In this document: piece by piece, positions 12,666 through 25,499 of the stretch | Position numbering within the stretch: the stretch's first letter is position 1 | Layout: the number at the start of each line of letters is the position of its first letter | NCBI GenBank assembly: GCA_934512105.1 | Contig: CAKSWQ010000003.1 | Coordinates: forward strand, 8,907 to 72,906 | DNA length: 64,000 nt | Reading direction: 5' to 3' | Origin: an uncultured Faecalibacterium sp. | GTDB taxonomy: Bacteria; Bacillota; Clostridia; Oscillospirales; Ruminococcaceae | Translations under genes and position numbers: made by a program | The notes under the pieces: model-generated | What the model saw: the letters and a program-made list of their open reading frames with translations, nothing else | What the model was told of the DNA's origin: nothing | The model's database searches: none

Positions 12666-14726
12666 TCAGATGCTCTGCATGGCATTCTTGCCTGCCACAT
12701 AGCCGTAGTACATGGCCATGGAGTGGCTCACGCCCTTCAGGCCGATGGGGTACTCGGTGGCAAAGCGGTTGCCCTGCACGTTGCCTGCCACATACAGACC
12801 GGGGATGACGTTGCGGTCGGCATCGAAGGTGTGGCAGTTCTCGTCGCTTTCCAGACCGCCGATGCACACCAGCAGCAGTGCGGTGGTGAACTTGTCGGCA
12901 TAGAAGGGGCCGTTCTCCAGTGCCCACATACGGGATGCGGGCTTGTGGAAGTCCTCATCGTAGCCGTCCTTGGCCAGCTGGTTGTAGCGCTGGATGGACT
13001 CCAGTGCAGTCTGCTGTGCAGCGGTGTCGTCCGGGTAGATCTTGGCGACCAGCTCTTCCAGCGTGTCGGCCTTGACAGCGCGGCCATCGGCTACGGCAGC
13101 TTCCAGCTGATAGGGGCTCTTGTAGTTGCGGTAGGTCGGGTTGTTCTTGGGGCCGTCTGCCTCGCTGGCGTAGTCCTCGTAGTAGCAGGCACCACCGTGG
13201 GCTGCCGGCATATAGGGCAGCTGCTCGGGCCAGTTGGCGTCAAAGATCTGCCAGCTCTCGCGGTTCTTCTGCAGCTCGACCTGATTTTCCAACTGCTGGC
13301 CGGGCAGATCCTCGTTCATGAAGCGCTTGCCGTTCATGTCCAGATTCAGGAAACCTGCATTGCCCATAACGCCGACGCCGCTCAGGTCTGCACCGCCGCC
13401 CATGTGATGGATCATGGGTGCGTGGCTCTGCTGCACCTGTGCACCAGCCCACATACCCAGCTGGATGCCATCGCCCTGATTGGTAAAGTTGCCCTCTACG
13501 TCCACATTAGTAAACAGGCACTGGATGTTGTTCTCGATGACCTCCGGGCAGAAATGCTGCAGCATTTTGGTGTTCTGGGAATAATCGCCGGTGGACAGGA
13601 TGACGCCCTTGGCAGCATTGCACTTGATGTACTCACCGGTAGCGGCATCGCGGGCATACAGACCTACGCAGCGGCCGTCCTCCATGATCAGCTTTTCCAC
13701 AAAGCAGCCATAGAAGGTGTCCACGTTGCCGGTATCCACAGCCTTCTGCATATTGGCATTGACGGTGACGGACTGGTTGGGCAAAAACTCTACAGAGGTG
13801 GGGTAGCAGGGGAAGCGCTCCTGCGTCCAGTCGTAGTGCTCGGGCAGCGGGTAGAAGATTGGAATCAGGAAGTTGTTTGCGTTTTCATCAGGGATGGCGC
13901 TGCGGGTGGTCTCGGCGTAGTACAGATCCGGATTTGCTTCTACCCACCAGTCAAAGGTCTCGCCGATGTTGTGCGCCCACTTGCTCATGATGGAGCGCTT
14001 GCAGCGGTAGGTGCTTTCCACCATGTGAGAATCAATGATCTCGTCGATCTGCTCGCGGGTCCATGTGTTGCGGCCCCACTTGGCCTGCACATTGCCGTTG
14101 ATGACGGCATACTCGCCGCTGCGGCACTGGGGGCCGTCAGCCTTTTCAAAGGCAGCCACCTTGCCGCCGTCCTCGGCGATGCTGCGCACGGCTGCCACAC
14201 CGGCAATGCCGCAGCCCACCACGGCCACATCCACATCCACCGTCTTGGTGACCTTGCTCTCGTCGATCTCGGGAGCCACGCCCAGCCAGTCGTTCTCCGA
14301 AGCAGCGGCGGCATTCCCGTCCTCGGTCTTTACGCCCATGGCCTGCTCGATGCAGCTGGCGGCAGCCTTTTTGACAGCGTTGGTGGTGACGGTAGCGCCG
14401 GAGATGTTGTCGATCTCGGCATTCTGGGCGGTCATCAGTGCCTCCTGCAGGGTGGGAGCAGCCACGCCGCCGATGCTCTCGGTCTCGTTGGAAGCGTCCA
14501 CCACCACATCGGTGATGGCGGTGGCGCTGAAGGTCATGGTGACCTTCACCTCACCGATGCCGGTGGCAGTGCCGGTGTAGGTGCCGGGGGTGTAAATCGC
14601 ATCACCGGAAGCGGCGGTGCTGGAAGAAGCTGCGGAGTTGCAGGCAGCCAGAGCGCCTGCGGTGACGCCGCTCATGGCGGCGGCTGCGGCAACTTTCAGA
14701 AAGCCCTTACGAGAGATCTTTTCCAT
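12666..14726 (-). CDS. Secreted FMN-bind/FAD-dependent reductase (fumarate or urocanate reductase-like)
   Basis: 686 residues. The N-terminal lipoprotein/Tat-like leader has SRKGFLKVA and a lipobox-like LAAC (about residue 29). An FMN_bind domain follows (about 45-130) with SGATVTTN, where ApbE-type flavinylation of the threonine is known in this family. Next is a FAD_binding_2 module starting VAVVGCGIAGVAAVRS (about 168-183), with FADH-dependent active-site features as in fumarate and urocanate reductases. It probably passes electrons to an external acceptor at the cell surface. It diverges from a LysR regulator and is monocistronic with its own terminator. The acceptor is unknown. Confidence 0.85.
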   Translation of the reverse strand: MEKISRKGFLKVAAAAAMSGVTAGALAACNSAASSSTAASGDAIYTPGTYTGTATGIGEVKVTMTFSATAITDVVVDASNETESIGGVAAPTLQEALMTAQNAEIDNISGATVTTNAVKKAAASCIEQAMGVKTEDGNAAAASENDWLGVAPEIDESKVTKTVDVDVAVVGCGIAGVAAVRSIAEDGGKVAAFEKADGPQCRSGEYAVINGNVQAKWGRNTWTREQIDEIIDSHMVESTYRCKRSIMSKWAHNIGETFDWWVEANPDLYYAETTRSAIPDENANNFLIPIFYPLPEHYDWTQERFPCYPTSVEFLPNQSVTVNANMQKAVDTGNVDTFYGCFVEKLIMEDGRCVGLYARDAATGEYIKCNAAKGVILSTGDYSQNTKMLQHFCPEVIENNIQCLFTNVDVEGNFTNQGDGIQLGMWAGAQVQQSHAPMIHHMGGGADLSGVGVMGNAGFLNLDMNGKRFMNEDLPGQQLENQVELQKNRESWQIFDANWPEQLPYMPAAHGGACYYEDYASEADGPKNNPTYRNYKSPYQLEAAVADGRAVKADTLEELVAKIYPDDTAAQQTALESIQRYNQLAKDGYDEDFHKPASRMWALENGPFYADKFTTALLLVCIGGLESDENCHTFDADRNVIPGLYVAGNVQGNRFATEYPIGLKGVSHSMAMYYGYVAGKNAMQSI

Positions 14727-14918: not shown

Positions 14919-15806
14919 ATGAACGACCACCAGCTGCTGTGTTTTTTGACCGTGCAGCGCACGCTGAACTTCACCGCCGCCGCAAAGGAGCTGTACTGCA
15001 CCCAGCCTGCACTCAGCTACCAGATCCGCACACTTGAAAAGGAGCTGGATCTGACCCTGTTCGAGCGCAGCACCACCCGGGTGGTGCTGACGGCGGCTGG
15101 CCGTGCCTTTGTGCCCCATGCAGAGCAGCTGTACCGGGGCATCCTGAACGCCCGCACCGTGCTGAAGGGCTTTTCCACCGGGCACACCCTTACCCTGCGC
15201 CTGCCGCCGGTGCTACTGCAACGCGACCCCATCTACCCGGTACTGATGGAGCAGCTGCACGCCGCGCTGCCCGGGTACGAGTTCCGGGTGGACACCGCCT
15301 CGCCGCGGATGAACGCCCATCTGATGCTCTGCACCGAGGCGGACGCCGCTGTAGTCCTGCCCTTCGGGGCGGCGCAGCCGGAGGTGGAGCGCACCCCCAT
15401 CATGCACAACACCTTTTATCTGGCGCTTGCGCCGGAACATCCGCTCTACCGCTGCGAGAGCCTGCAATTGGCCGACCTTGCGGGGCAGCGGGTATACTAC
15501 GAGCCGCTGTATCAGGAGATCGTGGATTATGCAAGTGTCCAGCCCGGAATGCCGTTTTCCACCATGGAATGGCGCAGCGTGGAAAACTATGCCCATGTCT
15601 ACACCGAGCTGCTGGCCGGGCGCGGGATGTTTTTGTTCCCCATGCGGTACCCCGCCTACCCGGCAGCGTGGTACCGGGAGGTACCTCTGTCCCTGCCGGA
15701 CACTGTTCTGCTGACTTTGCGGGACGACCCCCGCCCGGAGATCACCACCCTGCGCCGGGTGTTCACCGAGGTTTACGGGGAGCGGATCAAAGCGTTGCTT
15801 TCATAA
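14919..15806 (+). CDS. LysR-family transcriptional regulator
   Basis: 295 residues: N-terminal winged HTH (LLCFLTVQRTLNFTAAAKEL, residues 5-24, continuing to about 60), then a periplasmic-binding-protein-like effector domain (about 90-290). It diverges from the secreted flavin reductase with a 192-nt gap, so it probably controls that gene in response to its substrate. GAAGGGAG precedes the ATG. A TATACT -10 box lies at about 14877-14882. Confidence 0.88.
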   Translation: MNDHQLLCFLTVQRTLNFTAAAKELYCTQPALSYQIRTLEKELDLTLFERSTTRVVLTAAGRAFVPHAEQLYRGILNARTVLKGFSTGHTLTLRLPPVLLQRDPIYPVLMEQLHAALPGYEFRVDTASPRMNAHLMLCTEADAAVVLPFGAAQPEVERTPIMHNTFYLALAPEHPLYRCESLQLADLAGQRVYYEPLYQEIVDYASVQPGMPFSTMEWRSVENYAHVYTELLAGRGMFLFPMRYPAYPAAWYREVPLSLPDTVLLTLRDDPRPEITTLRRVFTEVYGERIKALLS

Positions 15807-23522: not shown

Positions 23523-23655
23523 AACCCTCTCAGTCATCGCTGCGCGATGCCAGCTCCCCCGAGGGGGGAGCTTTATTTGTGCTGACCGGCAGATCGCAAA
23601 AAGCTCCCCCTTCGGGGGAGCTGGCTGCGACCAGCGGGAGCAGACTGAGAGGGTT
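23523..23655. repeat. R1 palindromic element
   Basis: Outer arms AACCCTCTCAGTC/GACTGAGAGGGTT, inner arms CCAGCTCCCCC/GGGGGAGCTGG, variable centre. It separates nagB from the LysR-phosphatase gene. Confidence 0.85.
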
Positions 23656-23678: not shown

Positions 23679-23707
23679 TTTACATTCCGCTGAAAAAGCG
23701 GTATTCT
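23679..23707 (+). promoter_or_regulatory. Promoter and palindrome before the LysR-phosphatase gene
   Basis: TTTACA (23679-23684), 17-nt spacer, TATTCT (23702-23707). The spacer contains CCGCT-gaaaa-AGCGG, a candidate operator for autoregulation. Confidence 0.5.
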
Positions 23708-23741: not shown

Positions 23742-25499
23742 ATGGATATCCGCCAGCTGCACTACTTTTTGACCCTGTGCGAAGAAATGAATTATACCCG
23801 CGCCGCACAGCGGCTGTTCCTGTCGCGGCAGGCACTGCGCCAGAGCATCTCTGCGCTGGAGGCCGAAATGTGCGGGCCGCTGTTCATCAGCGCCCACCAC
23901 AAGCTGGCGCTCACCGACCGGGGCATGAGCTTACAGCGCCATGCCGCCCCGGTGGTGGAGCAGTTCCAGCAGATGCAGGCCGCCCTGCGGGCAGAGATCC
24001 AGTCTGCCCAGCCGGTGCGCATCGGCATCAGCGTGGCGCTGGTGCCGGACTACCTGCCCGGACTGGAAACACAGCTGGACAAGTTCCGGCAGCAGTACCC
24101 CCATGTGGAAATGCGGTTCCGTCTGCTGGACAACGACGCCGTAGCCGATGGGGTAGAGCAGGGCGAGCTGGACGCGGGTCTTGTCATCGACCTTGGCTGC
24201 GCTGCGCCGGTGCTGGCACGCACCACCCTGCGGGCGGACCCCGCCTGCCTGCTGGTGCCCCGGGGACACCCCTTCTGGGAAAAAGAGCGCATCCCGCTGG
24301 CAGAGCTGCGCGGGCAGCGGGTGCTGCTGCCCAGCCTGCGGCAGGATCTGTTCAGCCCGCTGTGGGCGGCCTGTGCCCGGGCGGGTTTTGCGCCCAACGC
24401 CGAGATCGGCCCCAGCTTTTATCAGGCCTACTATCTGGTACAGGAGCAGCTGTGCACCTGTCTGACCCGCTACGAGCCCGGTGCCAGGCGGGAGCTGGAC
24501 CGGGTGCGGGACGTACTGCTGGAAGATATGCCTCCGCTGTGTGTCTCGCTGGTGCAGCGGCGGGACACCAGTTCCGCCTATATCGACCTGCTGCGCAGCT
24601 ACCTGCTGGAGGTTCTGGGCAGCACCGCCAGCCTGCCGCCCCGCCGGGGACGGCCTGCAAAGCCCTTCTACACCGCGCCGGTGCTTTCCAGCGCCGCCGC
24701 CAAGGCTGTCCCGGAGCATCCCGCCCCGGGCACTCAGCTGCCCTTTGCGGGCGGCAGCAACTTCCGGGAGCTGGGCGGCTACCACGCCGATGAAGGCAAG
24801 ACCGTAAAGTGGGGGCAGATCTACCGTGGCTTCCCCACCGGGCTGCTGACTGCCGAGGCCGACCGCGCCCGGCTGGACGGGCTGGGGCTGCGGCTCATTC
24901 TTGACCTGCGCAGCAGTGCAGAAGCTGCAAAGCTGCCGGACTATGTGCCGGACGGCGCACGGCTGGTGCAGATCTGCGGTCTGCGGGATGCCGCCGGGCA
25001 GGAGATCGATTTTTCTCCCAACGACATCCAGCGGCTGGTGCAGAGCGTCCCCGCCGGGACGAACCTCTCCCAGCTGATGTACCGGCAGATGCTCACCGGC
25101 AACAAGGCGTTCAAGGAGCTGTTCCGGGCGCTGGAAGCCGGCGAGACGCCCATCCTGTTCCACTGCACCTCGGGCAAGGACCGCACCGGCGTAGCCGCCA
25201 TGCTGATCCTGCTGGCGCTGGGCGCTTCGGACGAGACCATCTGCGCGGATTATGCCCGCACCAACCTCTGCCGCGCCGCCGAGATCGAAAAGGCCATGGC
25301 GGACCATGCGGCCGAGATCGCCGCCGACCCGGCGCAAAAAATGCGCTGGCAGACCTCCGCCGGGGTAGACCCGGAGACTGCGCCCTTTGTGCTGCGCACC
25401 ATCCGGCAGGACTACGGCAGCGCCGAGAGCTATCTGGAGGCTGAATACGGCCTGACCCCCGCCCGCCTGATGCGGCTGCGGCGGATGTATCTGGAGTGA
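23742..25499 (+). CDS. LysR-type regulator fused to a protein tyrosine phosphatase
   Basis: 585 residues in one uninterrupted frame with GGGAGGAG before the ATG. Residues 1-60 are a LysR winged HTH (LTLCEEMNYTRAAQRLFLSRQ). About 90-300 is a LysR effector domain (VRIGISVALVPDYLPGLE; GELDAGLVIDLG). After a Pro/Arg linker (about 303-335), residues 335-585 form a Y_phosphatase3-type tyrosine phosphatase: NFRELGGYHADEG, IYRGF, LILDLRSSAE and the P-loop HCTSGKDRTG with Cys475 and Arg481. The CX5R nucleophile and the acid-loop region appear intact. Known LysR proteins are about 300 residues, so this is nearly double. A role linking phosphate-ester cleavage to transcription is inference. Confidence 0.85.
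   Translation: MDIRQLHYFLTLCEEMNYTRAAQRLFLSRQALRQSISALEAEMCGPLFISAHHKLALTDRGMSLQRHAAPVVEQFQQMQAALRAEIQSAQPVRIGISVALVPDYLPGLETQLDKFRQQYPHVEMRFRLLDNDAVADGVEQGELDAGLVIDLGCAAPVLARTTLRADPACLLVPRGHPFWEKERIPLAELRGQRVLLPSLRQDLFSPLWAACARAGFAPNAEIGPSFYQAYYLVQEQLCTCLTRYEPGARRELDRVRDVLLEDMPPLCVSLVQRRDTSSAYIDLLRSYLLEVLGSTASLPPRRGRPAKPFYTAPVLSSAAAKAVPEHPAPGTQLPFAGGSNFRELGGYHADEGKTVKWGQIYRGFPTGLLTAEADRARLDGLGLRLILDLRSSAEAAKLPDYVPDGARLVQICGLRDAAGQEIDFSPNDIQRLVQSVPAGTNLSQLMYRQMLTGNKAFKELFRALEAGETPILFHCTSGKDRTGVAAMLILLALGASDETICADYARTNLCRAAEIEKAMADHAAEIAADPAQKMRWQTSAGVDPETAPFVLRTIRQDYGSAESYLEAEYGLTPARLMRLRRMYLE

Follow-up and report, generated by a model that had tools for sequence, protein, structure and literature searches.

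The window, meaning the whole 64,000-nucleotide stretch of DNA that was analysed (uncultured Faecalibacterium sp., assembly GCA_934512105.1, contig CAKSWQ010000003.1, positions 8,907 to 72,906, forward strand), contains a gene in which a LysR transcriptional regulator is fused to a phosphatase. The gene is a single open frame of 585 codons plus stop at 23742-25499 (+), and its translation contains no internal stops. Pfam profile searches placed the helix-turn-helix (HTH) domain HTH_1 (PF00126) at residues 3-61 (E 1.5e-13, 50.9 bits against a cut-off of 26.6), LysR_substrate (PF03466) at residues 89-292 (E 2.4e-21, 76.5 bits against a cut-off of 28) and Y_phosphatase3 (PF13350) at residues 334-585 (E 1e-58, profile positions 2-240 of 240); all three matches exceed the Pfam cut-offs. 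An earlier note on this DNA had proposed that one 585-codon frame unites a LysR regulator with a Y_phosphatase3 domain, and translation and Pfam agree with it. The active-site positions given there, Cys475 and Arg481 in HCTSGKDRTG, were also correct: this P-loop occupies residues 474-483, is intact and includes C475, K479, D480 and R481. The features of the locus are these:

23679..23707, + strand: fusion promoter, TTTACA-17 bp-TATTCT, with the CCGCT/AGCGG palindrome in the spacer
23742..25499, + strand: LysR-phosphatase fusion gene, 585 codons plus stop (translation, domains, genus and database matches)
23742..24620, + strand: LysR half, residues 1-293 (Pfam domains; unfused LysR paralogs end at the same point)
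24621..24716, + strand: linker, residues 294-325, which alignments place in neither unfused LysRs nor unfused phosphatases
24642..24662, + strand: AT-hook-like RRGRPAK, residues 301-307, within the conserved SLPPRRGRPAKPFY (297-310)
24717..25499, + strand: phosphatase half, residues 326-585, with PF13350 from 334; it starts near the start of unfused relatives (HPAPG..LPF)
25161..25190, + strand: catalytic P-loop HCTSGKDRTG, residues 474-483 (HCxxGKDR[TA]G in 120/120 listed rows)

The fusion recurs within one genus. Among the 100 relatives searched, 31 genomes are Faecalibacterium (G001-G031), and 14 of these carry the fusion at full length (residues 1-585), free of stops and with 81-98% identity. 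Eight of the 14 carriers are single-contig assemblies. All 120 matches listed of 977 in the database combine PF00126, PF03466 and PF13350, and the eight named fusion loci are all from Faecalibacterium (F. prausnitzii, F. hattorii, F. longum and two further species). The earlier note had singled out a stop or frameshift between residues 300 and 340, or homologues always occurring as two genes, as grounds for abandoning its proposal. No stop lies in that interval in any of the 14 carriers, and the phosphatase homologues are separate genes solely outside one clade. Below, "the 15 fusions" refers to the window together with the 14 genus carriers.

Outside this clade PF13350 was seen only without LysR. 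In a family sample the domain was detected in 42 of 148 genomes, with a frame above 450 aa only in G001 (Faecalibacterium). In a phylum sample it was detected in 35 of 398 genomes, and frames above 450 aa belong to G001 and three others (G567, G575, G468; loci L095, L096, L097), whose proteins of 720-874 aa have SAM_HAT_C followed by two Y_phosphatase3 domains, one of them also with SH3 domains. The two next-longest frames of the family sample come from G216, where Y_phosphatase3 is joined to a GNAT acetyltransferase (L099:1120-2400, - strand), and from G113, which shows PF13350 alone. A LysR domain is absent from these five longest other PF13350 frames scanned (G567, G575, G468, G113, G216); the longest frames were scanned individually and the shorter ones were not, and other phyla were covered by 14 control genomes. 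Among the genomes sampled, a LysR partner for PF13350 was thus seen solely in this Faecalibacterium clade. In the literature, judged by title and the start of the abstract and with few subscription papers covered, neither a LysR-phosphatase fusion nor a study of such a Faecalibacterium protein turned up, in line with the earlier note, which knew of no described LysR protein of this architecture. We know of no LysR regulator joined to a Cys-based phosphatase, nor of any LysR with an attached enzyme.

The phosphatase half resembles the MptpB-like atypical lipid phosphatases (ALPs; PDB 8dhi/8dhj, 1ywf/2oz5) in its HCXXGKDR[TA]G motif, including the Lys and Asp, and in its full-length PF13350 match. 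The solved relatives found by sequence were 8dhi (E 6.1e-31) and MptpB 1ywf (E 1.1e-17). According to the available text of PMC3091653, the MptpB-like ALP family is defined by this P-loop, the Lys and Asp of which matter for substrate binding and catalysis, and its members consist of the phosphatase domain only; in the fusion the phosphatase instead follows a LysR regulator. Since PF13350 also takes the other partners described above, "phosphatase domain only" is not a firm trait of the family. The motif HCxxGKDR[TA]G is present in all 120 full-length rows listed of the 977 database matches and, of the 170 rows that have both halves, in 157; the remaining 13 end earlier, run out of frame there or contain foreign sequence.

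Because the catalytic half is an MptpB-like ALP, protein-tyrosine activity is not a given, and what is supported under the earlier label "protein tyrosine phosphatase" is the intact active-site motif. Candidate substrates include small phosphoesters alongside phosphoproteins, since the domain belongs with the MptpB-like ALPs and phytase activity has been reported for a Y_phosphatase3 protein (available text of PMC6409689). A bacterial tyrosine kinase (BY-kinase) partner was considered, and the distribution of TIGR01007 revealed no clear link: of the 31 genus genomes, 21 score above its cut-off, among them 11 of 14 carriers and 10 of 17 others. An internal start yielding free phosphatase was also rejected, as codons 286-345 offer only a GTG at 314 with no evident Shine-Dalgarno.

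PF13350 was matched in 17 of the 31 genus genomes, once in each: 14 copies are fused, three are unfused, and no genome has both. The fusion is therefore the only PF13350 gene of the carrier clade. Two of the unfused genes (G012 and G021) are 62% relatives; the third (G019) is a distant family member and was rejected as a close unfused relative. In the phosphatase tree (31 rows) the 15 fused rows form one clade with support of 100/99. The RNase Y tree includes 28 of the 31 genomes (three had no match, and the G014 sequence is a fragment); a branch supported at 97/98 separates the 14 carriers from the rest. Since the fused phosphatases form one clade and the carriers one side of the RNase Y branch, the trees indicate that the fusion arose once in a Faecalibacterium ancestor and was then kept. 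Some proteins in the phosphatase tree, the LysR tree and the neighbourhood survey were taken from gapped alignments and realigned, and only presence, order and tree shape were used.

Eleven of the 14 carriers have rny directly downstream of the fusion; in the window, G001, G027 and G007 an alpha-amylase-family gene follows it in place of rny. The nagB gene is upstream of and co-directional with the fusion in the window and in 8 of 14 genomes. The unfused phosphatase gene of G021 is also directly upstream of rny. The fusion probably formed when a LysR gene became attached, in frame, to the 5' end of a phosphatase gene of the MptpB/ALP type that was already resident. This joining is likely, though not proved, to have happened beside rny, because both the unfused G021 gene and most of the fused genes lie before it. 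The donor LysR gene is not settled, because fused and unfused rows of the LysR tree separate at just 73/71. In other genera (L037-L041, genes named by eye), a class 3 fructose-1,6-bisphosphatase-like gene precedes the unfused PF13350 gene at four of five loci (not L040) and a cytidine deaminase-like gene follows it at four of five (not L041).

LysR proteins are among the commonest bacterial regulators. Unfused LysR paralogs in the genus genomes are 42-49% identical to the fusion over the LysR half, and the database protein P0316 is 57% identical. The fusion resembles LysR-type transcriptional regulators (LTTRs) in having HTH_1 and LysR_substrate, in its length up to residue 293 and in a recognition helix nearly identical to that of the unfused paralogs. 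The paralogs end at about residue 293, whereas the fusion continues into the linker and phosphatase.

The genomic setting also differs. LTTRs typically have a divergent neighbour gene and a T-N11-A operator, though neither is required. In the seven loci fetched, the unfused paralogs are divergent from an FMN_bind/FAD_binding_2 flavoprotein gene; the fusion is not. Most of the seven also show, by eye, an ACGCAAG-N5-CTTGCGT-like repeat just past the LysR -10, which the fusion does not have. The repeat is ACGCAAG-N5-CTTGCGT in L032 and L035, CAAG-N5-CTTG in L029-L031, and weaker in L036 and L042; it is a possible operator of the unfused paralogs. In the window, the paralog-type repeat gave one match with three mismatches versus 3.97 expected, which is not above chance. 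That the fusion retained the divergent flavoprotein of its paralogs is unsupported: the divergent gene in G008 encodes an SBP_bac_5 protein, and a TetR-like frame (read by eye) occupies the gap before the unfused G021 gene. The window does contain an FMN_bind + FAD_binding_2 flavoprotein at 12666-14726 (-), divergent from a different LysR regulator at 14919-15806 (+). Its homologues are the flavoproteins found divergent from the fusion's unfused LysR paralogs in the seven loci fetched.

The two halves are joined by a linker of about 30 residues: in alignments unfused LysRs end at about residue 293 and unfused phosphatases start at about 323-326. Its conserved block SLPPRRGRPAKPFY has a GRP core with basic residues on both sides, and 12 of 13 columns of residues 298-310 are invariant across the 15 fusions. 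Of 370 database rows examined, 170 have landmarks of both halves (rows were not selected by motif). RRGRPAKP is present in 157 of these, RRGRSAKP, in which the core is without Pro, in seven and neither in six, so that RRGR[PS]AKP totals 164 of 170; the counts are not independent events because many rows are near-copies. In five of the six hook-less rows the linker is replaced (P0075), deleted (P0251, P0276) or out of frame (P0193, P0354). Calculated from residue composition, RGRP would turn up by chance in a linker of this kind with a probability of about 0.0009.

According to the available text of PMC11354804, a GRP core with flanking basic residues defines most AT-hooks, and the available text of PMC10432532 describes WhiB7 of Mycobacterium as a bacterial regulator with an AT-hook. 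Like the fusion, WhiB7 has an RGRP core between basic residues in a regulator. However, it is an unrelated protein, and the motif of the fusion lies in an interdomain linker and was spotted by eye, not by a model. The motif, which was not part of the earlier note, is here called AT-hook-like.

Selection on the 15 fusions was estimated as the ratio of nonsynonymous to synonymous divergence (dN/dS, Nei-Gojobori) in the 94 of 105 pairs with dS >0.2; the pairs are not independent. The median dN/dS is 0.074 in the HTH and 0.098 in the effector domain. For block 298-310 it is 0, with no replacement in 80 of 94 pairs, and for residues 311-329 it is 0.191. The phosphatase half has a median of 0.282 versus 0.065 in the P-loop (470-496). 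Eight chosen pairs gave values similar to those of the 94-pair set. The low P-loop value is consistent with selection for activity. Since dN/dS is low in both the LysR domains and the P-loop, selection appears to act on both activities, and more strongly on the LysR half taken as a whole.

The promoter is also conserved. TTTACA and the 17-bp spacing are found in all 15 fusions, and the -10 is TATTCT in 13, with TATCCT and TATGCT in one each; the promoter is followed by a conserved Shine-Dalgarno. The CCGCT/AGCGG palindrome, which the earlier note suggested as an operator of the regulator, lies within the 17-bp spacer. It pairs 5/5 in the window and only 1-4 of 5 in the other 14 genomes, although the HTH stretch SRQALRQSI does not differ among 14 of the 15 fusions, and its role as an operator is therefore unsupported. 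Fourteen of the 15 fusions share AAAARGCGG, the right part of the spacer (23687-23701), and the left half varies. No conserved block upstream of the -35 was visible by eye across the 15 upstream regions; T-N11-A was not specifically searched. The exact block TTTACA-N8-AAAARGCGGTAT marks the fusion promoter, with one match per genome, in 13 of 14 carriers; G008 has none. A search for it without mismatches in the 31 genus genomes brought out no regulon. One extra match, which precedes a frame of G019 judged by eye to be carboxypeptidase-like, is probably due to chance.

The fusion has a single origin, no second PF13350 gene in its carriers, constraint on the P-loop and LysR half, and a conserved linker motif. 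The most likely reading, at about even chances, is a DNA-bound one-component regulator with a tethered, catalytically competent phosphatase. Such a protein would combine DNA binding, ligand sensing and catalysis. Its LysR half would oligomerise, sense a small ligand and bind its promoters, and the basic RRGRPAK linker could contribute a minor-groove contact beside the LysR site. The C-terminal phosphatase, still catalytically competent, would be kept at the DNA, where it may hydrolyse a phosphorylated metabolite or protein whose level tracks what the LysR half senses. Transcription would in that case be coupled to phosphoester turnover. The earlier note had proposed that the phosphatase activity or its substrate could tune DNA binding, or that the regulator could localise the phosphatase. 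The further suggestion of a catalytic output at the promoter, in which a LysR with its own phosphatase and AT-hook-like linker hydrolyses its substrate on the DNA and thereby feeds back on transcription, is tentative and carries appreciably less confidence.

Several results weigh against a tethered-phosphatase regulator. The coupling of the LysR and phosphatase activities is a step that we infer. Divergence is faster in the phosphatase half than in the LysR half, and neither an operator nor a regulon was found in the promoter and genus-wide block searches. The sixth hook-less row, the divergent P0170, reads PQGRGGPARPLY in place of the hook, which speaks against a strict need for it, and the 38-residue linker matched no Pfam family at E up to 10 (models this short have little power). 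In G012 the unfused phosphatase gene has no rny next to it; there rny lies 14.9 kb into another contig.

The strongest competitor, although we regard it as unlikely, is that the phosphatase simply came under the expression of the LysR gene, with the halves acting independently and the tethering functionless. The carriers have no other PF13350 match, the unfused G021 phosphatase occupies the same place before rny, and the faster evolution of the phosphatase is what an independent module might show. A functionless tether would, however, sit poorly with a linker that has not eroded, given its 12 invariant columns of 13 and a hook in 164 of 170 rows. Less probable again is that the phosphatase fold acts as an additional sensor, which binds a phosphorylated ligand and allosterically gates LysR, catalysis being slow or incidental. 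Enzyme folds are known as sensors, for example the aminotransferase folds of GabR/MocR regulators, and a conserved LysR half with fast-evolving outer parts of the phosphatase fits this picture. But all 120 listed full-length rows retain the P-loop Cys, Lys, Asp and Arg, and a pure sensor could lose Asp480. Finally, an artefact (read-through, frameshift or chimeric assembly) has practically no probability: chimeric joins, truncation or loss of frame do occur in some database rows (P0074, P0075, P0193, P0250, P0281, P0354, and among those seen also P0251 and P0276), but the explanation is refuted by full-length, stop-free copies across the genus, dN/dS is well under 1 in each region measured, and the same architecture in 14 of 31 genus genomes and 120 listed database matches is no assembly accident.

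If such a catalytic output at the promoter is real, then, as far as our knowledge and the literature covered extend, no LTTR with a catalytic domain would have been described before this one, which one clade of a major human-gut genus has retained. BirA, NadR, GabR/MocR and ROK repressors likewise have a DNA-binding module and an enzyme fold in one chain, but none that we know of joins a LysR regulator to a Cys-based phosphatase. A fusion of single origin, both halves of which still have unfused relatives in the same genus, amounts to a natural experiment in which a one-component switch gains an enzyme. For the Faecalibacterium prausnitzii clade, in which to our knowledge few regulators are understood, it also provides one that can be tested.

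The gap between nagB and the fusion contains repetitive extragenic palindromic (REP)-like palindromes at 23552-23620 (AGCTCCCCC...GGGGGAGCT), which are listed as terminator-like.
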